Virus record (IMG/VR): IMGVR_UViG_3300017748_000154
Span: 1-22,902 of that record
Origin: a virus
Strand: one strand, 5' to 3'
DNA: 22,902 nucleotides
A program made the translations under genes and the position numbers. The notes beneath the pieces were generated by a model, which had not been told where the DNA came from, did not search any database, and saw nothing but the letters and a program-made list of their open reading frames with translations. Shown in pieces: positions 3,516-22,902 of the stretch (the stretch's first letter is position 1; the number at the start of each line of letters is the position of its first letter).

Positions 3516-3916
3516 TTGTGTTCTCCTGTGTGCTTCTTGTGAATTGAGGCAAGCATTGAATCCACAGCGCTAGCGCTGAAGGTGCTTGGTGTTGACGATT
3601 CCTTCTTTCTCTCCTGATCTGATGAAGTATCCAATGAGACTGCTGATGATTCCAAATCCAATGACGATGATGCAAGTTGCAACAGCCATGCTTTGCTCTC
3701 CTTTGTGAGGTTTGTGGTGCTTGGGTTTTCTCTTGTGAGTTCTCTGTTGAGAATAAGAAAGCGCACGCCGTCCTTGGCGAGGCTTTCGGCTCGTGCTTCC
3801 ATTATGACATTACAAGGTGAAATATGTTGTTTGCCTGTAATGATTGCAAGCACATTGAGTGACAAGCCATGCAACTGCCTGTCACAAATTATGATTGTGT
3901 CTTTGTCTTGGTTCAC
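3512..3916 (-). CDS. Small hypothetical protein, GTG start inside methyltransferase stop
   Basis: I place the start at a GTG (3916), giving 134 residues. GAGAGGAAACACA sits directly before it, the same leader used by two neighbours, and the GTG overlaps the methyltransferase stop as GTGA. A later ATG at 3802 has no ribosome binding site. The protein begins NQDKDTIIICDRQLHGLSLNVLAIITGKQ and contains RFLILNRELTRENPSTTN. It has a Ser-rich middle (SSSLDLESSAVSLDTSSDQ) and ends in a basic tail (SIHKKHTGEHK). I recognise no family. Lying between the methyltransferase and the annealing protein, and coupled to both, it probably acts in phage DNA metabolism or modification, but this is context only. 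Confidence 0.6.
   Translation of the reverse strand: MNQDKDTIIICDRQLHGLSLNVLAIITGKQHISPCNVIMEARAESLAKDGVRFLILNRELTRENPSTTNLTKESKAWLLQLASSSLDLESSAVSLDTSSDQERKKESSTPSTFSASAVDSMLASIHKKHTGEHK
3565..3578. repeat. 14-bp perfect palindrome in coding sequence
   Basis: CAGCGCTAGCGCTG is its own reverse complement and lies in the 3' part of the small GTG-started gene, encoding Ser-Ala-Ser-Ala. It may be only a by-product of the AGCGCT dicodon repeat, or a binding site. Confidence 0.6.
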
Positions 3917-4851
3917 TGTGTTTCCTCTCTGAGTTGTGTGAAAAGTGTTCTGAATGCAACTTCTGCTGTTGCAGGAACAACACCGTTGCCCAAAAGTCTC
4001 AATCTGTCCACTCTGAACCGAGCTTTGTCCATCCAACTGGAATCCCCATCAGTTGTTCGACCCAATCGGGGTTCAATTGTCCGGGGTTGCTCGTGGGGTC
4101 TCTGGGAACTGCCCTGCCCAGAAGGCCATTGGTCAACACATTTGGTGATGGGTTTGCTCCATCCTTCCAATCTCTTGTCGTTGGTGTCGGCCAGGCCCTT
4201 GTTGCATCTGTCAGGGTTGATCCCTTGTGCATCACTCCTGTCTTGGTCGTTCCTCTTGCTGAATCCCTTGAGTCGCCCACTGTCGCTGTTGGCCACTGCT
4301 GCAATGAAGACTCTGTTTCTTCTGTGTGGTGCTCCTGTTTCTTGCGCTGAGAACATGCCCCACGTTGCTGTGAAACCAAGGCTTTCCAGTTCTCCCAAGA
4401 CATGCAAGAGAACTGATGTGCCTTCTTGTCCTCTGAGCTTTGCTGTGATGATCCCTTCAACGTTTTCAAGGAAAACAAGCCTTGGTTGAACTTCTCTGAT
4501 GATGCGTTTGATTGTTGGGAACAAGTGCCTTGGGTCAGAGTCTGCCAAATGCTTTCCAGCTTGGCTGAAGGGTTGACATGGGAATCCACCTGACAAGACA
4601 TCCACCTTGCCACGATATGGTTTCCCATTAAATGTCCGAAGGTCCGACCAGACAGGTGCTGAATCCAACTTTCCCTGTTCCATCTTTTCAACCAAGTTTG
4701 CGATGGCGAAGGCTTCGATCTCCACATAAGTGATCGTTCGGCAAGTTGGGAGAACTCTTCTGATCCCAAGGTCAATGCCTGCATATCCTGTGCACAGGCT
4801 GAGATGGTTGATGGGATGATCCACATGGGTGTTCTCCATTTGTTGTGTCAT
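3913..4851 (-). CDS. DNA (cytosine-5-)-methyltransferase, orphan phage enzyme
   Basis: The 312-residue protein shows the C5-methyltransferase motifs in order: motif I as LSLCTGYAGIDLGIRR (residues 17-32, SAM binding), motif IV GGFPCQPFS (catalytic Cys92), motif VI FLENVEG (Glu129), motif VIII APHRRNRVF (175-182) and motif X LLGNGVVP (287-293). The target-recognition region (about 184-285) is short and hydrophilic. The VANSD...ADTNDKRLEGWS segment is typical of phage Dcm-like enzymes. It transfers a methyl group from SAM to C5 of cytosine at an unknown site. No cognate endonuclease is nearby, so it is likely an anti-restriction or regulatory methylase. I chose the ATG at 4851, 25 bases after the previous stop; its leader GAAAGAAAACCA is a weak ribosome binding site. 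The ATG at 4839 is the alternative. Confidence 0.9.
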   Translation of the reverse strand: MTQQMENTHVDHPINHLSLCTGYAGIDLGIRRVLPTCRTITYVEIEAFAIANLVEKMEQGKLDSAPVWSDLRTFNGKPYRGKVDVLSGGFPCQPFSQAGKHLADSDPRHLFPTIKRIIREVQPRLVFLENVEGIITAKLRGQEGTSVLLHVLGELESLGFTATWGMFSAQETGAPHRRNRVFIAAVANSDSGRLKGFSKRNDQDRSDAQGINPDRCNKGLADTNDKRLEGWSKPITKCVDQWPSGQGSSQRPHEQPRTIEPRLGRTTDGDSSWMDKARFRVDRLRLLGNGVVPATAEVAFRTLFTQLREETQ

Positions 4852-4876
4852 TGGTTTTCTTTCAGTGTGTGTTGGC

Positions 4877-5413
4877 TCACCAATCAATTGGTGTGCCAAC
4901 CATGTCCATGCTTCTCATTCCAGCAATGCATCTGACATCATCACCAAATTTTGATTGAATGTGATGCACTTGCAGTCTTTCCCATCTTGCTGTGCCTTCT
5001 TTGTCAGACAACTTGCACTGTCTTTTGTATGTTCTCCAATCACCACTTGGGGTGTCTTTGAGTTGAAACAGAATCTCAGTTCTGCCCCACTTCTTGATTT
5101 GATCAACCTCAGCCATCCTATCTGTTACCAAACCAACCCAAAGGTCAGCATCCATTTCAAGTTCTGTGCCTTCAAAATCATGTGGTGGCTTTTCCTTGCA
5201 CCATGCATGGAACTCAGCTTGTTCAACAAGGAGTTCATCAAGTTTGGGATTGATGAAATCAATCTGAAGTGGACCACCCCAACCATCATCAAAGATGGTG
5301 GCAACCTTCTTGGATTTTCCATCAGTGACTCGGTGAAGTGTTGCAGTGAATCCCTGCCCATCATGACCAGAGACATGCTTGTATGACTTGACGTTGTATT
5401 CAGTGTTGTTCAT
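4877..5413 (-). CDS. Hypothetical phage protein, first gene of the left operon
   Basis: This 178-residue protein starts at an ATG preceded by GAGAGGAAAC. The frame is open further upstream to a GTG at 5527, but that stretch contains the predicted promoter, so I treat it as leader. The N-terminus (VSGHDGQGFTATLHRVTDGKSKKVATIFDDGWGGPLQIDF) resembles a recurrent, uncharacterised phage domain with a small beta sheet. The rest is mixed and Trp/Lys-rich (KWGRTEILFQLKD, DWRTYKRQCKLSDKEG). No catalytic motif is obvious. As the first gene after the promoter it would be made early, ahead of the methyltransferase, annealase and replication genes. Takeover or anti-host roles are possible but unsupported. 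Confidence 0.65.
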   Translation of the reverse strand: MNNTEYNVKSYKHVSGHDGQGFTATLHRVTDGKSKKVATIFDDGWGGPLQIDFINPKLDELLVEQAEFHAWCKEKPPHDFEGTELEMDADLWVGLVTDRMAEVDQIKKWGRTEILFQLKDTPSGDWRTYKRQCKLSDKEGTARWERLQVHHIQSKFGDDVRCIAGMRSMDMVGTPIDW

Positions 5414-7769: not shown

Positions 7770-8053
7770 TTTTCAGCCCTCTTCTTTTTGTATTCAGCAA
7801 GCGTCTGTTGAATGATGCCGCTAGCCTTGTTGAGTTTTTCTCTTCTCTTCTGACAGCCACCACATGGCTTGATCCCTGCCTTGTCGGTCAGGTTCTTGAT
7901 CCTGTCACCAAGGCCTCGAGCAGGCCCTGAATATCTTGAGCATGATGCACAAGCACCTGGCATCTCACTTGGCTCGGCGAGGCCAAGACCACATGATTGA
8001 ACACCAGAGGTTCCAGTTGCGAAAACACATGTTGATTTTTCAGAGTGACTCAA
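7766..8053 (-). CDS. Small cysteine-rich protein with CGGC zinc-ribbon-like motif
   Basis: The frame overlaps the following jelly-roll gene by ATGA. Its start is uncertain. I use a TTG at 8053 with AAAGGCGGA upstream (95 residues, 14-base overlap with the previous gene). ATGs at 8089 and 8137 lie deeper in that gene and lack good ribosome binding sites. Six cysteines fall in pairs: ACASC (35, 38), GIKPCGGCQKRREKLN (64, 67), and C9/C21. The GIKPCGGCxKRRExLN motif recurs in many small phage proteins of unknown function and looks like a metal knuckle. The end is a basic helix (EYKKKRAEK). It sits between two tail-tip genes, suggesting a structural or assembly role with bound metal. Confidence 0.6.
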   Translation of the reverse strand: MSHSEKSTCVFATGTSGVQSCGLGLAEPSEMPGACASCSRYSGPARGLGDRIKNLTDKAGIKPCGGCQKRREKLNKASGIIQQTLAEYKKKRAEK

Positions 8054-9599
8054 GCGTGATCCGCCTTTCAATTGTTTCACTGGTTGCATCACCACTACCA
8101 ACAAGCCACCCGATGGCTTTGCCCACATTCTGTTCATCGGTCAGATTGCCAAAGTATGCCACTGGGTCTGCTTGCTCCATCCAGATATCATCTTCTTTCG
8201 GCCACTCAATTGCCAATGTTTTTGGGTGTGATTTGTGATTGACCATGCATCCGATATTTGCTTGTGGAACACAGCAACCCGCATATGAACACATGCCATT
8301 GAGACCATCAACACCAGTGCCATCATCACAATTGCTTGAACAGATGTGGACTGGTGGGGAATATGGCCTTGCATCAGGGTCATCAATCCTTTCATGGCTC
8401 CACACGGTATCTGGGGCTGTTGGTGGGCAATTGCATCTCCCCACTTCAAGTTGATCACACCTGTTGAAACAGCCATGACCACACTGTGAAAGGCTGCATC
8501 CTTCATATACGTTTTGGTTGTTGATGTCACTGCAATTCGTGCTTCCCACTTCTCTGAGGCATCGACAAAAAGGGCTTGCACAATTGCCATCTTCTGAGGT
8601 CAAGCACTTCTCAACTGCAAGTTCACCAAGTGTCCCTTTGGAACATGGGCAAACATCATCAAGTGCAACGGGTCCACAGTCTTGAAACCCACAAGGGTTG
8701 TTCACGCCATTACCAAGGCTCAAGTTACTTCTGCACCCATTTCGTATCAATGTCGAGTTGAAAGGGTTTTCCACAGGAAATTGTGCAATCTTTGAGTACT
8801 GATCAGTGCAGCCAAACCATGCCCTGAACTTGTATCGCTGCCTTGTTCCATCATTCCAGCACTCGAGTTCCCATGAGCCGATGTTGTATGTTGCTTCGGT
8901 TTGAAAAGCATTCATATCACCAATGTTCTGCACTCTTGTGAATTGGTCGAATGCTTGGCCTGTTGGGTCACCATATGGTGGTCTGTGTGTATTCGCATTC
9001 CCCACAACGGCATCAAGTTCCTCTTCAAAATCCGGGCCATCACTGCTGACTGCAAATGCACTTGATGCGTTTGAGCTTCGGATATCAACAGACCTGTCAT
9101 TCTTGAATGTGTGCCATGATGGCCCTTGTCCGCCATCAAGGTATTCACTGGAAAATGGACCTGGGCAAAACCCACGATGAACATATCCCATATTCGGTTC
9201 ATCTGGGTCAGGTGTCCCAGTGCCAGTTTCATCATTGAGGTGACACCTCTGTGAATTGACAGGCTCCACAGTGAATGGTGGGAATGAAGCGTATCCTGTG
9301 ATGCAGCTGAGTGAACAATGATTCAGAAGACTGTTCAAGTCATATTTCCACCACTGGTCTTGATACCAGCCTTGTTCAACACATCTTGTTGAGCTTGTGA
9401 GAATGCCTTGCATAGGGTTCCAAGTGATGCTGTTTCTTTCTCGAGAGCCACGAAAAAAACTGCCATCAGGCAAGTCCTGATCAAACTTGAAACGCAGCCT
9501 TGGAAAGTTGACCATGTGGTCAAAGCAATCAGATGGCTCACCTGGTGGCTCATCTTCATTCCGGCAACAACATGCTGCTGCTCTCCTGAAGCTACCCAT
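8040..9599 (-). CDS. Very cysteine-rich tail-region protein, 33 Cys in 519 residues
   Basis: It starts at an ATG overlapping the previous stop by 8 bases. The N-terminus is MGSFRRAAACCCRN, with no signal peptide. The first half (20-290) is Trp/Tyr/Asn-rich with scattered Cys. From about residue 290 to 455 the protein is a dense array of short Cys loops (DCGPVALDDVCPCSKG, FCRCLREVG, CSLSQCGHGCFNRCDQ, RCNCPP, CSYAGCC), EGF- or knottin-like in spacing but without one strict repeat unit. The last 60 residues are Cys-poor (WPKEDDIWMEQADPVAYFGNLTDEQNVGKAIGWLVG). Its place among tail-tip genes suggests an adhesin or appendage stabilised after release by disulfides or metal. I know no family with certainty. 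Confidence 0.7.
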   Translation of the reverse strand: MGSFRRAAACCCRNEDEPPGEPSDCFDHMVNFPRLRFKFDQDLPDGSFFRGSRERNSITWNPMQGILTSSTRCVEQGWYQDQWWKYDLNSLLNHCSLSCITGYASFPPFTVEPVNSQRCHLNDETGTGTPDPDEPNMGYVHRGFCPGPFSSEYLDGGQGPSWHTFKNDRSVDIRSSNASSAFAVSSDGPDFEEELDAVVGNANTHRPPYGDPTGQAFDQFTRVQNIGDMNAFQTEATYNIGSWELECWNDGTRQRYKFRAWFGCTDQYSKIAQFPVENPFNSTLIRNGCRSNLSLGNGVNNPCGFQDCGPVALDDVCPCSKGTLGELAVEKCLTSEDGNCASPFCRCLREVGSTNCSDINNQNVYEGCSLSQCGHGCFNRCDQLEVGRCNCPPTAPDTVWSHERIDDPDARPYSPPVHICSSNCDDGTGVDGLNGMCSYAGCCVPQANIGCMVNHKSHPKTLAIEWPKEDDIWMEQADPVAYFGNLTDEQNVGKAIGWLVGSGDATSETIERRITLESL

Positions 9600-15290: not shown

Positions 15291-15637
15291 GACACATCCT
15301 CATTGCTGCTTGCACTGATGATGTGATAAAACAATCGATCTCTGCTGGTGCGCATTCCTGGTGTTCTTTTTGAGTTCACTTCAAAGGTCTTGTTGTCAAT
15401 CTTGATTCTGTCAGTGATGTTGATGTCAGAACCACCTTGAACATACACGGTCACAGACTCAACAGCCCTCTGCCTGTTTCCATCAAAGGATTCATCCATT
15501 GACCTGGATGCAACATATCCTCTGACCTGAGGCCTTGCATGAAAGGTCTGCTTTCTCGAGCCAACAGAGTCACGCTTGAGAACAGGTCTCAAAACTTGCA
15601 TCTGCTGACCTTTGGTTTGGATCAAGGCTTTGATCAT
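15287..15637 (-). CDS. Head closure protein (SPP1 gp16-like)
   Basis: I start it at the ATG at 15637, which overlaps the connector stop by one base; a TTG one codon upstream is an alternative. The 116-residue protein is a small beta barrel candidate: MQVLRPVLKRDSVGSRKQTFHARPQVRGYVASRS..., then ESVTVYVQGGSDINITDRIKIDNKTFEVNSKRTPG and FYHIISAS. The TDRI...I..KTFEV segment is typical of phage head-tail joining (Phage_H_T_join) proteins. These close the portal channel and hold the tail. Position between connector and gp10-like genes is canonical. Confidence 0.65.
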   Translation of the reverse strand: MIKALIQTKGQQMQVLRPVLKRDSVGSRKQTFHARPQVRGYVASRSMDESFDGNRQRAVESVTVYVQGGSDINITDRIKIDNKTFEVNSKRTPGMRTSRDRLFYHIISASSNEDVS

Positions 15638-16497
15638 CAACGAACCCTCTTGAACGGACCCAGAAGCGTCTTGACGTTTTCAGACCACTCAGACCAAGCC
15701 CTCACTGTGTATGAATAGTCGCCAAGGCTCTCCTGGTTGATTGCCCTGTCTCGATCTCTTCCACGGTATGCATCTGAGATCAACTCAAATGCTGCTTGCA
15801 CCAGTGCATTGGGGATCGTCTCATATCCACCGACATATTGCACATACACGCTTTGGAACTGGTTCGGAAACCTGTTGTTGCGTCTGGTCTCATTGAACCT
15901 TGGGAATGCATCTGCTCTCAGGTGGATGAACCCTCTGTCATAGTCCACCCGATATTCACTCTCAGCATCGTCTGGGATTGTCAGATATGCATTGGTTGAG
16001 GTGACATCTCTGCCACCCATCTGGTGCATGTTCTTTGAAAGTGCATTGACAGACACTGTGGCATCGAACCCAGCGGTCACGTTTATCTGTGCCGCGAGTG
16101 TCGTGGTTGTCTTGTATGTTGAAAATGAGAGGTTGGTTGTCGTCTCTGTCCCATCTTCTTGCACGCGGTACAAACGGGCCTGGTCTGCTTCGATTGCGAT
16201 AGTTGCCGCAATATCAGAATCAACAGCACTCGAGACTGTGATGGCATCTTGCGTCCCGAAAGCGATGAGATCGACGCTGACAACAGGAGGGTTCTGAACA
16301 GCAATCGTGCGAGTTCCATATGCATCAAGATACTCCGTGAAAGACTGTGAAACAAATGACCTGTCACACCATCTCTCAATCTGGTCACTGACATTGTTGA
16401 CCATCGTTTCAATGAGGTCATCATCAGTGGATGTGGTCACACCCATGTACGTCTTCACTGCTGCCACTGTTGTCAGTGCGTTTGATGCCAATGCCAT
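15637..16497 (-). CDS. Head-tail connector/adaptor protein (HK97 gp6-like)
   Basis: This 286-residue protein starts at an ATG with GGAG seven bases upstream, 12 bases after the previous stop. The N-terminus, TTVAAVKTYMGVTTSTDDDLIETMVNNVSDQIERWCDRSFVSQSFTEYLDAYGTRTIAVQNPPVVSV, is a textbook gp6/gp15-type adaptor opening. The C-terminal helix set, VQYVGGYETIPNALVQAAFELISDAYRGRDRDRAINQESLGDYSYT, closes the fold. Between them lies an inserted beta-rich region (about 85-200) that makes it longer than the usual 100-220 residues. Twelve copies would form the ring under the portal. Confidence 0.8.
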   Translation of the reverse strand: MALASNALTTVAAVKTYMGVTTSTDDDLIETMVNNVSDQIERWCDRSFVSQSFTEYLDAYGTRTIAVQNPPVVSVDLIAFGTQDAITVSSAVDSDIAATIAIEADQARLYRVQEDGTETTTNLSFSTYKTTTTLAAQINVTAGFDATVSVNALSKNMHQMGGRDVTSTNAYLTIPDDAESEYRVDYDRGFIHLRADAFPRFNETRRNNRFPNQFQSVYVQYVGGYETIPNALVQAAFELISDAYRGRDRDRAINQESLGDYSYTVRAWSEWSENVKTLLGPFKRVR

Positions 16498-16509: not shown

Positions 16510-17040
16510 TTAGTTGGTCGCTCGATACACTGAGCCTTCTTCACCGTCGAACGCTGAACTTTGTGCTGGACTCGTGGACAGGCTTGCACCAAGAAGCAGG
16601 GCATTGGCTGCGATTCCAATATTCGATGCAGCACCGTTGATGACACGCACCTGAAAGAATCGCTTTCTGCTTGGCGTCAGTGGAATATAAAACGTCATCA
16701 CACTGTTGTCAGTGTCTGTGTCGATTCCACTTCCTGTTGCTGCTGTTCCATCAGCTTGCGCATCGACTAACGAGTTGCAACCGGGCACCGCGTTGTACCC
16801 TCCGGCTTGTGGATCAGCATCAATCACATCATCTTCATCGACTTGACACGCGAGGACGTTCGGCGCGTTTGCTTGATCGAACATGATGCTAATGATGAGA
16901 AGGCCACCAGCGAACCCGAAGGTGTCAACCGGGTTGAGGTTTGCAGTTGATGCGGTGTTGCCGACATCAATTGTGCCAGATGAGTTCAACTGCTTTCTGC
17001 CAACCATCAGCACTGGCTTGATTGAATCGAATTTATACAT
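16510..17040 (-). CDS. Decoration-like capsid protein, third copy of a tandem family
   Basis: The start is the ATG at 17040, one base after the previous stop, with AAGGAAGA upstream (176 residues). Shared landmarks with the two genes upstream are an aromatic-Gly core with alternating strands (NPVDTFGFAGGLLIISIMFD), a central acidic loop, TDTDNSVMTFYIPLTPSRKRFFQVRVINGAASN, then IAANALLLG. The matching stretch of the second copy is DVVFDVLLDPDRKRYFRLTYTAG, then SAILLG. The pattern suggests a beta sandwich of about 110 residues with a variable tail. Position directly after the major capsid gene points to a capsid decoration or spike protein. The family itself is not one I can name. Confidence 0.55.
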   Translation of the reverse strand: MYKFDSIKPVLMVGRKQLNSSGTIDVGNTASTANLNPVDTFGFAGGLLIISIMFDQANAPNVLACQVDEDDVIDADPQAGGYNAVPGCNSLVDAQADGTAATGSGIDTDTDNSVMTFYIPLTPSRKRFFQVRVINGAASNIGIAANALLLGASLSTSPAQSSAFDGEEGSVYRATN

Positions 17041-17041
17041 G

Positions 17042-17527
17042 CTATGATCTTCCTTTGCTTGTATACAACTTTGAATTGGCACGCTTTGTTGTGTTTGAAG
17101 TTGTGACCTTCTGTCCGTTTGTCCGACCAAGAAGTATTGCGCTGCATGAAATCATTGTGTTGAGCTTTCCACCTTCTGTTCCGGCGGTATATGTCAGACG
17201 GAAGTAACGTTTTCGATCAGGGTCAAGTAGAACATCGAAGACCACATCGCTGTGGTCGGTGTCTGCGTTTGGCTTCGTCCCAATGTTGCCGTCAATATCT
17301 CGGCTTGTGGCATTCATAAATTCTGACCATGCAGATCCATCATCAGATTCTTCCATGATGCAGGTGTCAGTCGATCTGGTCGTCACGCCAATCTGTAGGA
17401 TTACAACTAACCTGCCGCCATGAAATCCAGCAGAGTCAATCACTTCAGAGATTGATGCAGTGGCACCATTTCCAATTTGGATTGGTGAGATGTGGCCGAT
17501 GACTTGATATTGTTCGAAGTGCTTCAT
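17042..17527 (-). CDS. Decoration-like capsid protein, second copy of a tandem family
   Basis: The start is the ATG at 17527 with AAGG six bases upstream. The frame is open further 5', but that part overlaps the first copy and the hairpin. The 161-residue protein reads KHFEQYQVIGHISPIQIGNGATASISEVIDSAGFHGGRLVVILQIG, then a loop with ESDDGSAWSEF, then DVVFDVLLDPDRKRYFRLTYTAG and MISCSAILLGR. This is the same order as in its neighbours. The last 25 residues are basic and Thr/Asn/Ser-rich. The 49-base gap before it holds a strong hairpin. It is probably displayed on the capsid, though a minor structural or scaffold role is possible. Confidence 0.55.
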   Translation of the reverse strand: MKHFEQYQVIGHISPIQIGNGATASISEVIDSAGFHGGRLVVILQIGVTTRSTDTCIMEESDDGSAWSEFMNATSRDIDGNIGTKPNADTDHSDVVFDVLLDPDRKRYFRLTYTAGTEGGKLNTMISCSAILLGRTNGQKVTTSNTTKRANSKLYTSKGRS

Positions 17528-17544
17528 GTGTGCCTTTGAAATGC

Positions 17545-17570
17545 AGAGGCAGGGCTTGCACCCTGCCCCT
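17545..17570 (-). terminator. Strong hairpin between first and second decoration-like genes
   Basis: A 10-bp stem (AGGGGCAGGG with CCCTGCCTCT, one G-U pair) and a 6-base loop lie seven bases after the first copy's stop. No T run follows on the minus strand, so this may be a partial terminator or an RNA end-protecting or processing element that raises expression of the upstream genes (capsid and first copy) over the downstream ones. The terminator function is inferred. Confidence 0.5.
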
Positions 17571-17576
17571 ACTAAA

Positions 17577-18050
17577 TTATGCAGTCGAGTCGGGAAGACG
17601 AATGATCTGCTCTGCTCCACGATCAGCGGCAAGGTCAGAAACCCCGGCGTTGTTCTTGCGAGAGAGGAGTGCAACTGCTGAAGCGAACGTTCCGTTCGTA
17701 CCATTGCCAGCAGTGAAATTCATCTTGAGAAATCGCTCACGGTTGTGAAGCTCAAACTCGAAGACAGTGATGGTGTTGTCAGTGGTACTGGTCTGGCTCG
17801 AAGTTGAACCAGTATTGTTGTTGCTGGTCCCTGCGATGAGACCAGTGACATCAGTGAATGAACCACCAGATGTTGCACATTCTGTCACCTTGCAAAGTGC
17901 GCTCGCAATATCGGTCGCACCAAGAGTGAGGATGATTGTGCAGTAGTCGTACCCAAGAGTATCAATCTCAACCATCGTTGATGCAGCATTGTCTTTCCGC
18001 GCTTCAGGCGGAATGGCTGCGGCAACCTTGAAATTCTGTGCTTGAATCAT
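17577..18050 (-). CDS. Decoration-like capsid protein, first copy of a tandem family
   Basis: This 157-residue protein begins at an ATG 20 bases after the major capsid stop, with GGAA upstream. It reads IQAQNFKVAAAIPPEARKDNAASTMVEIDTLGYDYCTIILTLGATDIASALCKVTECATSGGSFTDVTGLIAGTS, then a Ser/Thr/Asn-rich loop, then TVFEFELHNRERFLKMNFTAGNGTNGTFASAVALLSR. Strands alternate as in a beta sandwich, and the RERFLKMNFTAG...AVALLSR ending is shared in pattern with the two following genes. Placement after the capsid gene and likely strong transcription suggest a capsid decoration protein. Confidence 0.6.
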   Translation of the reverse strand: MIQAQNFKVAAAIPPEARKDNAASTMVEIDTLGYDYCTIILTLGATDIASALCKVTECATSGGSFTDVTGLIAGTSNNNTGSTSSQTSTTDNTITVFEFELHNRERFLKMNFTAGNGTNGTFASAVALLSRKNNAGVSDLAADRGAEQIIRLPDSTA

Positions 18051-18070: not shown

Positions 18071-19570
18071 TTACGAGGCCGGGCCGAGCTTCATTGCAAC
18101 AAGTGGGCCAGCTTCTGAACTGGTGCCAGGTGAGTGCAAGTTGAAGTCAAAACGCTCGGTTCCCCGAACAACAATCTCATCCTGCTCGAAAGCGTTCAGA
18201 GCCGAATCACTGAATGAGATGGTGTTGCTGCGGCGGTCACCGAAGCAAGTTGCAAGTGCCATGTCACCGAAGATGATTGGGTACTTCAGAGGCATAGCAG
18301 AGTCACCATCAGCAGTGGCGAAGGTAGGCATGACCTGCGTGAACTCGACAGGGTATCCGAACAGGTTCGGGCTGTACTTCTCGTTCAGCAGTTCGCCGCG
18401 AGTTGAACCACCAGCAGCAGTCACGAGCTTTTCTGCAACGCCATGGAAGATCGACTTGTGCATGTAGAACTTTGCACGAGGCGTGTCAGCGTATGCAGGA
18501 AGCAAAGCCATCAACGAATGCAGATCGCCGATACCGATTTCAGTGGTGTCGTCGGTTCCGGTTGCAGTCGTGAAGATGCCTGCATTGCTCGACACGTTGT
18601 TGATGCCGTTGATGATGCCAACAATGTTTCCGAACGTGCTTGATCCGTCACCGAGGAAGCCACATTCGTCTTCCTTGAGCGCGAAACTGTAAGCGACCTC
18701 GCCGGCCACAGAATCGCCAAGGTTGATCAACGAATCTTCGTTCAGTTCGTTGCTGATCGTGGTCAGCACCATGAGCTTCTTCGCAACAAGGTTGACCTGC
18801 TGGAACGTCTGGGTGGTCTCAGATCCAGCAGTTGCCTCACCCACGAATGATGCCGTGAGGGTTGCACTTCGCTTTGGAATGCGCTTGGTGTCAGAGGTCA
18901 TTGGCTCAATCTTCGCATTGCGACGAAGGACACCATACTCTTCACGAAGGCTGATGAGCGTGTCAGAGAACTGTTCAGGCACCAGGAATCCACCTGCTGA
19001 GTTCACACTTTCCAGATGTGCCTTGGTTTCGATGCCACGATCAGCGCACCAATCCATTGACTTCTTGTGTCCCATACAAGCAGCAGCCCAACGGCCAAAC
19101 TTATATGCCTCGAGTTCAGGGTCGCCACTTGCAACCTTGATCTGGCTCATGTGCTTGAGGCTACCCCATCGCACCATGCCTTCTCTTTCGTTGTCGATTC
19201 TCATGTCAAATCCTTTGCCTTTGACGGTGTTGTTCTTGTTCTTGTTTGCCAGTGCCTTTGCAACAGCCTTGTTGACAGCAGCATTGATGTCAGCTGACTT
19301 CTCAGCCTCTTCATCTTCTTCTGCCTTGTCTTCAGCTTCTTCATCGGCCATGGCCTTTTCATCTTCATTGTCCTCTTCCATCTTGTCTTCCTTTGCAGGA
19401 GCGATCTCGATGGACAGGTCAACGCTGTCTGGGTCGATTGGGTTGCCTTCAGCATCCATGATCTGAACGTCTTTCAGATACAGTGCCTTGGTGCGTGCGA
19501 AATCATCTTCACCCACCTCATTGAGCAAACCCTGAAGATCCTTCTGGATCTCTGAGATTGTTTTCTTCAT
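18071..19570 (-). CDS. Major capsid protein, HK97 fold, with acidic delta domain
   Basis: I start it at the ATG at 19570 (AGGAAACC upstream), 100 bases after the protease stop, giving 499 residues. The first 120 residues form a scaffold-like delta region: helix 1-35, then an extremely acidic tract (60-95, KEDKMEEDNEDEKAMADEEAEDKAEEDEE) and a helical NAAVNKAVAKALANK segment. The HK97 capsid part follows: GGFLVPEQFSDTLISLREEYGVLRRNAKIEPM (193-224), then ATLTASFVGEATAGSETTQTFQQVNLVAKKLMVLTTISNELNEDS, and FLGDGSSTFGNIVGIINGI. It closes with P-domain strands (YPIIFGDMALATCFGDRRSNTISFSD) and a FDFNLHSPG end. Cleavage by the upstream protease near residues 120-190 is expected. Its codons are richer in CG than those of most neighbouring genes. 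Confidence 0.9.
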   Translation of the reverse strand: MKKTISEIQKDLQGLLNEVGEDDFARTKALYLKDVQIMDAEGNPIDPDSVDLSIEIAPAKEDKMEEDNEDEKAMADEEAEDKAEEDEEAEKSADINAAVNKAVAKALANKNKNNTVKGKGFDMRIDNEREGMVRWGSLKHMSQIKVASGDPELEAYKFGRWAAACMGHKKSMDWCADRGIETKAHLESVNSAGGFLVPEQFSDTLISLREEYGVLRRNAKIEPMTSDTKRIPKRSATLTASFVGEATAGSETTQTFQQVNLVAKKLMVLTTISNELNEDSLINLGDSVAGEVAYSFALKEDECGFLGDGSSTFGNIVGIINGINNVSSNAGIFTTATGTDDTTEIGIGDLHSLMALLPAYADTPRAKFYMHKSIFHGVAEKLVTAAGGSTRGELLNEKYSPNLFGYPVEFTQVMPTFATADGDSAMPLKYPIIFGDMALATCFGDRRSNTISFSDSALNAFEQDEIVVRGTERFDFNLHSPGTSSEAGPLVAMKLGPAS

Positions 19571-19670
19571 TGCTTTGGTTTCCTGAAATTGTGAAATTGA
19601 CTCAACACTTGGCTTGTTGTCCTGGCTCATCCACTTGGCTGGTGCCGTTGGTTCGAGTGGCAAGCGCGTG

Positions 19671-20363
19671 TCACATGAATAGTTTTCCAGACTGCTTCGC
19701 AATCTGTTGTTTGACGGCATTCTCAATCAGGGCCTTGGTGTCCACTGGCCTTGTGAGCTTGATTCTGTGTGTGCTCTTGATCTTGACTTCTGATGTGGGT
19801 TCCTCAACCTCGAGGTTGCAGAACTTTTTGACCTGGGCAGTTGTGACAATGCCCTTGCCAACAGCGGTGATCAGAGCATCTTGATTGGCTGGGAGTGGTG
19901 CAATTGAGACCTCAAGCAGTTTCCACTTGTTGAAGACCTTCTTGATCTCATTTCCGAACTTGCTCTTGTCAGCCTTGGATGCAACCCGCGCACCACCCTG
20001 TTCAGGCACGAAGCCAACTGACACGCCCTTCACAATCCCTTGCTTGACCAGAGCTTCAACAAAGGATGGGAAGAAGTCACCCACGAAGTCCTTGGGCCTT
20101 TGTGCAAACTCGAGGTTGCCCATGACAGCACGATCAACCCTCTTGATGTTGGTGACCTTGCCGATGGGCTGGTCATATTCGTGATTGTAGAACAGCACAG
20201 GGTTCTTTTCATAGTCTTTGGCATTCATGCCCTGTGGCACGAGCACCTCACCATCACGGTCCACTGAATCAGTGGTCAGCTTGGCCACAATGGTGTTGCC
20301 TTTGCTTGCTTCAACTTGTGCTGTCAGGGTCTTCTTCAACATGCTTGTCACCTTGTCTCTCAT
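19671..20363 (-). CDS. HK97-family prohead protease
   Basis: The start is set at the ATG at 20363 because AAGGAG lies just before it, 29 bases after the minor head protein stop; an ATG at 20426 in the same frame lacks a ribosome binding site. The 230-residue protein shows the S78/U35 prohead protease layout: TAQVEASKGNTIVAKLTTDSVDRDGEVLVPQGM, LFYNHEYDQPIGKV with the catalytic His at residue 61, VKGVSVGFVP with the nucleophile Ser115, and WKLLEVSIAPLPANQDA (147-163). The C-terminus is basic and may be removed by self-cleavage. It trims the capsid delta domain during head maturation, in line with its place between portal and capsid genes. Confidence 0.85.
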   Translation of the reverse strand: MRDKVTSMLKKTLTAQVEASKGNTIVAKLTTDSVDRDGEVLVPQGMNAKDYEKNPVLFYNHEYDQPIGKVTNIKRVDRAVMGNLEFAQRPKDFVGDFFPSFVEALVKQGIVKGVSVGFVPEQGGARVASKADKSKFGNEIKKVFNKWKLLEVSIAPLPANQDALITAVGKGIVTTAQVKKFCNLEVEEPTSEVKIKSTHRIKLTRPVDTKALIENAVKQQIAKQSGKLFM

Positions 20364-20392: not shown

Positions 20393-21256
20393 TCACTTGA
20401 AAGAAATGATTGGCTTGAGTGTGCATCTGCAATTTGGGTGAAGAGGCGGGGACTTCACCGCACCATAGTCGAAATTCAATGTTCCGCCTTTGTCAACGTC
20501 CAGCCTGTCACCCTGATTGAAAAATGGCTGGTCAATGGGTTGTGTGATTCCTCTCTTGCCCATCTGCCTGCAAAAGTCACAAGGGTTTTGAGCCACTGAC
20601 CACTTCATCCTGGTCAACCCAGACTCTTTCCAAGCCTCAACCTGGCCCTCATTCAGTGCTCGAGATGATTCAGTCCTTGCGACTGTTCTGGCTCTCCACT
20701 TGATCTGCCTTTCAATGTCACCATTTTGCCTTGCCCACTGCTGAATTCTTTCACTCAACTCTGGGATTGTTTCACCACGCTCAAGGCCATCACCAACCAA
20801 AGACCTGAGTGAGGCCTCAAGGCCCTTGCCTGTCCCACGTTGGAGCCTTGCAACTTGTTCCTCAATCTGCTTGTCAATCGCTGAAGGCATGTTTGAGATT
20901 GGTGCTCTCATTCCTGGTGGCACTTGGGTCAATCCCATTTCAGCACCTGCCAAGGCTTGTCTGGCCAAGAATTCCTGAATGTACTGAGGCAACAACACCT
21001 TGTTGACTTGAAGCCTGCGTTGCATCTCAGCAATCATTGACTGTGCATTGGCAAATGAGCCGGGGTCAACATTCACGATTGATGACCTGAGCACCTCTCT
21101 GAAGTATGCTCTGACCTCTCTCTCAAACCGTGAAAAGGCTGTCACACTGGTGGTGACAGATGGGTCAGGTGTCTGTGCCTTGGTGTGAACAGAGGGTGTG
21201 CCAAAGTCCAACATGGACTGGTTCACAGTGATTGATTTGTTGCATGAGTTGCACAT
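20393..21256 (-). CDS. Minor head protein, Mu F / SPP1 gp7-like
   Basis: This 287-residue protein overlaps the portal stop by ATGA. The N-terminus (MCNSCNKS) has a CxxC pair. The C-terminal half is the Mu-F/SPP1-gp7 head morphogenesis domain: RTVARTESSRALNEGQVEAWKESGLTRMKWSVAQNPCDFCRQMG (191-233) and LHPNCRCTLKPI (272-283). The CDFC and CRC cysteines with the nearby His are the usual metal-binding set. A helical region (40-180) links the two ends. In SPP1 the counterpart binds the portal and is carried into the capsid with DNA. Its place between portal and protease genes is standard. Confidence 0.85.
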   Translation of the reverse strand: MCNSCNKSITVNQSMLDFGTPSVHTKAQTPDPSVTTSVTAFSRFEREVRAYFREVLRSSIVNVDPGSFANAQSMIAEMQRRLQVNKVLLPQYIQEFLARQALAGAEMGLTQVPPGMRAPISNMPSAIDKQIEEQVARLQRGTGKGLEASLRSLVGDGLERGETIPELSERIQQWARQNGDIERQIKWRARTVARTESSRALNEGQVEAWKESGLTRMKWSVAQNPCDFCRQMGKRGITQPIDQPFFNQGDRLDVDKGGTLNFDYGAVKSPPLHPNCRCTLKPIISFK

Positions 21257-22902
21257 CAGTCTTTTCTTGGGTGTCCTTCTGGAAGCAAGTCATTGTCGGT
21301 GACATACTTGGCACTCTCTGGCTTGCCATTCCTCACCAGATACAAGAAGGCATTGACTCGAGCCATTGACCACTGTTGCCTGCTCATGCCGGGCCTGTGT
21401 GAGGTTGAGAAGGCACCAGCACCACGCCGATACACTGCCTTGAGCATCCCCAGATCAACCTTCTTGCCCTTCTCATCGCCATGCTTCTCATTGTGCTCAT
21501 CGGCCTTGTTCTTGAGGCCCTCCTCTTGAGCTTCTGATATCTCAATCCCACCTCGAGTGTCTGAGGCTGTCCCTGGCTTGTTCTCATCAGAACCCTCAAC
21601 ACGCTCACTGGGCTTGGCTGGGGTGCTGCTCACTCTGTCACCTTGAGCCTTGGTCTCAGTCTCTCTCTCGATCTCCTCAAGCTTGCGATCTGCCCAGCCT
21701 GCACCTGCACCATCAGGGTCATTGGGATCACCGCCCCAGAGCAGCCATGCCACCACACCTGCTGATGGATAGTCTTCATGGCTTGGGTCAGCTGCTGGTG
21801 CATCAAGGTCAACCCTATGGCGCGCAAAGAATGAGGCCATGCGGCCAACAGTCTCAACTGAGAGGTTCTCACCATTCTTGATGTCTCTGGCCCTGGCAAC
21901 TCCAACCTCGGTGCCACCTCTGCCATGCTCCTCACGAAGCCTCAAGCCTCTCTCAGCCATTTCCCGCATCTCAGAGGTGGGTGAGAGGTCAATATCTTCA
22001 AGGGCCTTCTGGGCGTGTTCCAGCCCTGTCAGGTCAGTGTATTCAGACATCTCTGCACATGGCATGTAGAGCAGGCCATCAGGGCCTTCATGGGTGTGAA
22101 ATCCTTCACAGCCCATCTCTCTTGCTCTGGCCTCTGCTTCTTCCTGGGTGGCATACAGGTCAATCTGGGTGGCTCCAACCTGCTTCCTGTGGTGATCCAT
22201 TGCCAACACAGACTGTGAAAGCACCATTTCACGGGCATCAGCCTCAGTGACACCCATTGCCTTGCACAGCTGGATGCCAGCAGCACTGGCAATCTTGCAC
22301 TCAGCAACGTCATTCAGAATGCCCTTGAGGGCCATGAAATCAATGCTTTTCTCATCAGGCTCAATCTCCTGGATGGCATCAATCTCTTCAACCTCTGCCT
22401 CGATCACCTTCTCATCATCATCCTCTGTGCCATATGCGTTGAACCCAAAGTCAGGTTGTGCTTGTGAACCCAGAGCCTGGCCGCCAAACAGCAGTTCATC
22501 AGCAAGTGGGTTCTCATTTGGCTCAAGGCCCTGCTCAAGTCTGGCCTCATTCAGAGTCAGCCAGCCACCAGCCACAGCAGTCTGACGCTGCTGAAGGTCA
22601 AAGGCCTTGTCCTTGGGAACTGGGTTGTCATAGGCCAAGCAGGCATCACCCTCAATCCCGAACATGGGAAGCAGCACCTGGTTGAGGACATCCTCATCCA
22701 TTCTCAGCAATGGCAAGATGGTTGACTCACGCCACTGACCAAAGCCAGCTGTGGCACTTGCAAGGTTGGGGTCATTGGCCTTCAACATGCTGACAGGCAC
22801 ACCAAAAACAGCAGCGATCTCCTCAACAATCTCCTCACGCCCTCCAATGTCCTTGGGCGGGAAGTTCAGAGGCTCAAACTTGACATCACCTGAGACAGCA
22901 AG
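21256..22902 (-). CDS. Portal protein with composite C-terminal extension, N-terminus missing
   Basis: The frame is open to the right edge and shows the last 548 residues. Visible residues 1-150 match the HK97-type portal C-terminal core: AVSGDVKFEPLNFPPKDIGGREEIVEEIAAVFGVPVSML, then WRESTILPLLRMDEDVLNQVLLPMFG and LTLNEARLEQGLEP. The rest is an acidic linker and several small modules I have met fused to various phage head proteins: YATQEEAEARAREMGCEGFHTHEGPDGLLYMPC (249-282), VGVARARDIKNGENLSVETVGRMASFFARHRVD...WLLWGG (333-391), and a terminal LGMLKAVYRRGAGAFSTSHRPGMSRQQWSMARVNAFLYLV...NDLLP (484-540). The portal ring forms the DNA gate at one capsid vertex. The role of the extension, about 380 residues, is unknown. 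Confidence 0.8.
   Translation of the reverse strand, partial: LAVSGDVKFEPLNFPPKDIGGREEIVEEIAAVFGVPVSMLKANDPNLASATAGFGQWRESTILPLLRMDEDVLNQVLLPMFGIEGDACLAYDNPVPKDKAFDLQQRQTAVAGGWLTLNEARLEQGLEPNENPLADELLFGGQALGSQAQPDFGFNAYGTEDDDEKVIEAEVEEIDAIQEIEPDEKSIDFMALKGILNDVAECKIASAAGIQLCKAMGVTEADAREMVLSQSVLAMDHHRKQVGATQIDLYATQEEAEARAREMGCEGFHTHEGPDGLLYMPCAEMSEYTDLTGLEHAQKALEDIDLSPTSEMREMAERGLRLREEHGRGGTEVGVARARDIKNGENLSVETVGRMASFFARHRVDLDAPAADPSHEDYPSAGVVAWLLWGGDPNDPDGAGAGWADRKLEEIERETETKAQGDRVSSTPAKPSERVEGSDENKPGTASDTRGGIEISEAQEEGLKNKADEHNEKHGDEKGKKVDLGMLKAVYRRGAGAFSTSHRPGMSRQQWSMARVNAFLYLVRNGKPESAKYVTDNDLLPEGHPRKD

Follow-up and report, generated by a model that had tools for sequence, protein, structure and literature searches.

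The systems closest to the locus described here are phages with cement or decoration proteins on their capsids. The cement protein of BPP-1 is described as dimerising at two-fold axes, both local and icosahedral, by way of beta-sheet pairing, and as needed for infectious phage (PMC3863775). Pectobacterium phage PhiM1 carries alpha-claw and alpha-paw (34.55% identity in the shared motif), related homodimers that share two-fold and quasi-two-fold sites 5:2 according to their closeness to the pentamers (PMC11440229), and Sf14 bears two decoration proteins, gp33 and gp20, on one capsid (PMC11821841). The Bbp16-type cement is annotated as one gene after the capsid gene in three records (BPP-1, epsilon15 and Carin1), all of them podovirus-type genomes. 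The present locus resembles Bbp16, Carin1 gp42 and epsilon15 gp8 in encoding a small protein right after the capsid gene, with profile homology over about 110 columns and a compatible beta-sandwich model, and differs from them in having up to three divergent copies among siphovirus-type connector and tail genes. With PhiM1 it would share the presence of related decoration proteins within one phage, whereas alpha-claw and alpha-paw have an unrelated, helical fold and are two proteins, not three; optional or swapped slots are not mentioned in the available portion of PMC11440229. Sf14 also has more than one decoration protein, but its gp33 and gp20 have unrelated folds (beta-tulip, Hoc-like) and are not paralogues.

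The DNA that we have analysed (the window) is the whole of a 22,902-base virus record, derives from a virus of bacteria known solely from environmental DNA, and has all its head genes on the minus strand. Pfam and PHROG searches gave the gene order portal end with fused domains, Mu-F-like protein, S78 protease, HK97-type major capsid protein (MCP), X1, X2, X3 and gp6-like connector, followed by a head-completion protein (below the Pfam cut-off; PHROG Hc1) and the tail genes. The MCP gene (18071..19726, minus strand) matches PF05065 (Phage_capsid, E 1.4e-44) and phrog_10 (major head protein, E 1.1e-49). After it come X1 (17577..18050, 157 aa), X2 (17042..17527, 161 aa) and X3 (16510..17040, 176 aa), all on the minus strand and referred to by their position as slots 1, 2 and 3, and the right-hand boundary of this cassette is the head-tail connector gene (15637..16497, minus strand; PF05135 E 1.9e-6; phrog_442, head-tail adaptor, E 8.8e-26). 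X1 is separated from X2 by a gap of 49 bases, and the stop of X2 from the start of X3 by a single base. The original prediction had placed three open reading frames of 157, 161 and 176 residues 3' of the major capsid gene; coordinates, lengths and strand agree, the upstream neighbour is indeed the Phage_capsid match, and all the motifs that it quoted are present in the three proteins. Elsewhere in the window, the C-terminus of the portal lies in one frame with DUF3721 and DUF5824 domains (21256-22800, minus strand), an unusual fusion. A C-5 cytosine DNA methyltransferase (3913-4899, minus strand; Pfam E 7.4e-34) and, in the tail region, a cysteine-rich protein of 519 aa without Pfam or PHROG match (8040-9599, minus strand) are also encoded.

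X1, X2 and X3 had been claimed to share one pattern and to have diverged too far for a recent duplication, and both statements agree with the comparisons that we have made. BLASTP related X1 to X2 (E 3e-8, 23% identity), X2 to X3 (E 3e-10, 29%) and X1 to X3 (E 6e-4, 27%), and the local alignment scores exceeded those of shuffled sequences with z values of 11.0, 15.9 and 6.5, respectively. None of the 2000 shuffles per pair reached the real score, the best shuffle for X1-X3 (70) being one point away from the real value (71). The profile comparison of the three proteins, proposed together with the prediction as a check, was significant for every pair of slots at E 1e-6 or better (6e-12 for slots 1 and 2, 1e-15 for slots 2 and 3, 1e-6 for slots 1 and 3). 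A family of unknown function, phrog_5707, takes in X1 (E 1.8e-11), X2 (E 9.9e-7) and 15 of the 18 members tested and leaves X3 outside. At E <= 1 none of the three had a Pfam match and X3 had no PHROG match either, so that the family membership of X3 rests on the pairwise and profile comparisons. X1, X2 and X3 are, on this evidence, ancient paralogues. The genes of the family are also under purifying selection, with a dN/dS of about 0.07-0.27 in the five of seven pairs that had a usable dS (the other two gave saturated dS and no ratio).

A possible role for these proteins was indicated by two faint signals. Of 18 members, two weakly matched the Pfam entry for the BPP-1 cement protein (Bbp16, PF21190; best E 0.0091), and a profile search of the PDB, run with the alignment of slot 1, gave three matches with the Carin1 capsid decoration protein (8cjz) at the top (E 0.058); searching PDB sequences with the alignment of X3 and X2 found nothing. 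Because of these two matches a direct profile test was run, with a Bbp16 profile whose relatives were taken from 15 named phages. The profile of slots 2 and 3 (plus slot 1 of L015) matched Bbp16 with a probability of 92.9% (E 3.8e-7, 111 columns) and that of all 24 members with 89.1% (E 2.2e-6, 106 columns), that is, the combined profiles showed homology across most of the domain. The real profiles scored 42-47, whereas none of 60 column-shuffled nulls exceeded 22.8, and six control families from the same genomes (capsid, protease, connector, head-completion, gp10-like and tail-tube) gave at most 0.4% each. Single-slot profiles were weak (20.8% for slot 1, over 17 columns, 46.8% for slot 2 and 12.4% for slot 3), none of X1-X3 reached the gathering score of PF21190 and the structural comparisons (see below) were mixed, and therefore we regard these proteins as distantly related to the BPP-1 cement and place them outside PF21190. 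At that level, a distant relationship of X1-X3 to the beta-jelly-roll cement protein of BPP-1 and Carin1 is well supported by the profiles. In BPP-1-like phages, among them BPP-1, epsilon15 and Carin1, the cement gene also comes immediately downstream of the capsid gene, and a member of our family is so placed in S-CBS1. The proposed decoration-like character is well supported by the distant cement homology together with the gene position, and the predicted cement role and fold of X1-X3 are supported by that distant homology. The homology between the family and Bbp16 appears to be a new link between things already known.

AlphaFold models of X1 and X3 (mean pLDDT 69 and 65), built from alignments that had no sequence in common, are both nearly all-beta and have most strands in the same order, at moderate confidence. 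The X1 model (pLDDT 69) superposed on the BPP-1 cement protein 3j4u with Z 7.7 (3.0 A over 108 residues, 18% identity) and on Carin1 8cjz with Z 7.2, and the Bacillus prophage proteins YomS and XepA fitted it better (Z 9.9) than the BPP-1 cement. Modelling and structural searches had been suggested as a way of checking the original prediction. The top 50 neighbours of the X3 model by Z include no cement protein. Foldseek against the PDB gave no match at E <= 0.001 for either model, and against BFVD the matches of the X3 model were above all uncharacterised phage proteins.

To see how constant this arrangement is, relatives were collected by a capsid-protein scan of 2.9 million viral contigs, of whose 365 relatives the best 80 were kept. 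In 74 of these 80 loci a gene of the family comes immediately behind the capsid gene, and the remaining six contigs end at most 127 bases past the capsid gene; among the best 80, therefore, slot 1 is never missing where the contig reaches far enough. A copy-number table that took in loci found through the family was set aside as biased. The unbiased count, restricted to the best 80 of 365, gives 57 loci with a connector, namely 36 with one copy, 17 with two and three with three, plus L053. The apparent four copies of L053 were rejected, since a frame shift has cut its X2 in two and the number is three. X2 is frame-shifted in one member of each of the closely similar pairs L053/L054 and L028/L029, either a sequencing error or a broken gene. 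The 42 non-redundant loci with both capsid gene and connector, which include some found through the family itself, comprise 28 with one copy, nine with two and five with three (the window, L014, L015, L023 and L054). The MCPs of the other three-copy loci are 59-86% identical to that of the window, and that of the single-copy L032 is 65% identical. Among described phages, tblastn of X1, X2 and X3 against 50,697 phage records gave no match, and only a distant single-copy member used as query found gp05 of S-CBS1 (33% identity, E 1e-4), which makes this cultured phage, through a distant match, a carrier of one copy. Genome contigs yielded 14 pattern matches to the slot-1 alignment, none of them a relative, and two MAG loci with the capsid alignment, both without the family, so no host was identified.

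The space between the cement genes and the connector holds other genes in some relatives. In L033 (7022-7519) and L068 (about 1.1-1.6 kb past the capsid gene) the third place before the connector, in the gap after X2, is taken by another small protein, which starts with MRQYL; its identification as a diverged X3 was considered and dropped (hhalign at most 1.1%). Between cement and connector, L074, L079, L096, L102, L107, L108, L115, L117, L120, L123 and L126 encode a protein of about 370-390 aa; the product is methyltransferase-like in L107 (Pfam E 8e-8) and weakly glycosyltransferase-2-like in L117 (E 0.005), and that of L079 has no Pfam match. L034 encodes a sulfotransferase in the same place (1661-2341, E 4.5e-11). 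These products may be capsid-modifying enzymes.

A way to follow the history of the individual slots is the tree of the family, which was built with 74 of 122 sequences (L021, L053, anything under 125 aa and copies with 92% identity or more were left out) on a short alignment, with many forks lacking resolution. The X3 sequences form a clade (100/99) that takes in the second gene of L063, and the X2 sequences another (98/96, or 96/90 once the second genes of L052, L055, L056 and L057 join). Both clades fall inside a group of 23 rows (100/99), the rest of which are the slot-1 genes of L015, L052, L055-L059 and L062. X1 of the window is placed outside that group, with L063 and L054, and a third kind, close to L032, occupies slot 1 in L014 and L023. 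From these placements, no fewer than three old lineages supply slot 1 to capsids that are closely related. For example, the capsid protein of L052 is 79% identical to that of the window and its slot 1 just 31%. X1 of the window is 70% identical to that of L063 (capsid 68%) and 56% identical to that of L054 (capsid 86%). The combinations vary too, L063 having X1 and X3 without X2, and L055 and L056 slot 1 and X2 without X3. Discordance is also seen for X3. Between L014 and L023 the identity is 90% for both the capsid fragment and X1, 92% for X2 and 98% for the connector, but only 45% for X3, whereas the window and L014, which share 66% in the capsid fragment, 31% in X1, 53% in X2 and 67% in the connector, are 95% identical in X3. 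The changes in identity at the DNA level coincide with the ends of X3, and an AU test rejects the grouping of L014 with L023 in X3 (p 0.0007). These sequence comparisons show that X1 and X3 have been swapped individually between phages.

Another conserved element of the cassette is an RNA hairpin with a 13-bp stem located between X1 and X2 in the window (17543..17572, minus strand; MFE -29.3 kcal/mol for 70 nt, z about -4.7), which leaves slot 1 on the capsid-gene side and X2 and X3 beyond. In 46 of 50 loci slot 1 is directly followed by a strong hairpin (MFE <= -20 kcal/mol), and the region after slot 1 has z <= -2 in 39 of the 50. Three of the four exceptions (L066, L108 and L112) have the hairpin after slot 2 instead; in all, it is found after slot 2 in 5/19 cases, with z <= -2 in those same three, and after slot 3 in 1/5. 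That last one is a second strong hairpin, between X3 and the connector of L015, alone among the five three-copy loci. After the connector, z <= -2 was reached in one of 39 cases (60-base windows). The sequence of the hairpin varies among loci and its place is constant. A plain intrinsic terminator was considered and appears unlikely for most hairpins, since only 11 of 46 are followed by at least four T within the next eight bases and the one in the window lacks a run of four T. Its role may lie in the processing or protection of RNA or in partial termination.

The explanation that we favour, and consider reasonably likely, is that X1-X3 are paralogous capsid cement proteins, with slot 1 as the core protein and X2 and X3 as optional ones, acting as homodimers at different classes of two-fold sites. 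Slot 1 is taken as the core because it is never missing where the contig reaches it and is followed by the hairpin. X1 would be made with the capsid protein from one stretch of message ending in the hairpin, and X2 and X3, past it, would be optional additions. We infer that the proteins would be present on virions, each paralogue most likely as a homodimer that clamps adjacent capsid subunits on icosahedral or quasi-two-fold sites, and that the paralogues may share out the site classes by analogy with alpha-claw and alpha-paw of PhiM1. Neither proteomics nor microscopy of any family member was found. By similar analogies, X2 and X3 might instead provide extra surface functions. A stronger version of this alternative, which we regard as possible but doubtful, is that only slot 1 is cement and that X2 and X3, with the fold retained, are surface proteins in low copy number that bind host or particles, comparable to Hoc or alpha-paw. 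Such a role would account for their swapping, and it fits with X2 and X3 being optional and located beyond the hairpin and with the exchange of alleles at X3; but slot 1 is exchanged too (X1 of the window against L063 and L054), lengths of 161 and 176 aa leave no space for a large extra domain, and the profile that best matches the cement is precisely that of X2/X3 (slots 2 and 3 plus slot 1 of L015).

The original prediction had favoured a heteromeric coat, and its obligate form, a hetero-oligomer (e.g. a heterotrimer) of X1, X2 and X3 covering the capsid, seems to us improbable. The fixed order of three ancient paralogues in five non-redundant three-copy loci, and the one-base spacing of X2 and X3, which suggests coupled translation, speak for it. 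However, the subunits are not always encoded together: 28 of the 42 non-redundant loci have one copy and nine have two, as X1 with X3 or slot 1 with X2, and relatives that live with one or two genes make an obligate three-part complex unlikely. Moreover, X3 has been replaced by a 45%-identical allele between neighbours that stay 90-98% identical, and the hairpin parts X1 from X2. Tail-tube-like or connector-region beta-sandwich proteins, suggested by the matches of 3/18 members to phrog_3884 ('major tail protein', best E 2.4e-4) and by the mixed structural neighbours, are a very improbable identity for X1-X3, as neither slot 1 nor slots 2 and 3 nor Bbp16 could be linked to the family of the window's own major tail protein (0.1-0.3%), the genes sit before the connector, and the profile homology is to cement.

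Returning to paralogous cement proteins with a core slot, a more specific and clearly more tentative proposal is a combinatorial coat, in which one to three homologous jelly-roll cements would each address their own class of quasi-equivalent two-fold on a single capsid lattice, the slots would be exchanged singly, and the hairpin would set the dose of slot 1 relative to the optional slots. The claim that no described family has this triplet arrangement held only partly. Neither the triplet nor a three-slot exchangeable cement cassette was found in the open-access literature searched, but phrog_5707 exists (with no function assigned) and PhiM1 has a related pair. The putative three-slot exchangeable cement cassette is a variant of the known decoration-protein theme.

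The most immediate consequence is that phrog_5707, a PHROG of unknown function, gains a likely one, and the cassette-like exchange together with the positional hairpin is useful for annotating uncultured phages. More generally, these phages provide a natural series of one, two or three putative cement paralogues on closely related capsid proteins. With this series one could test a long-standing question, how capsid subunits that are identical but differently surrounded steer each partner to its own kind of site, and also ask whether added cement genes give strength, size or surface variety. If the combinatorial coat were true, one gene family would yield a site-addressed, mix-and-match outer coat.
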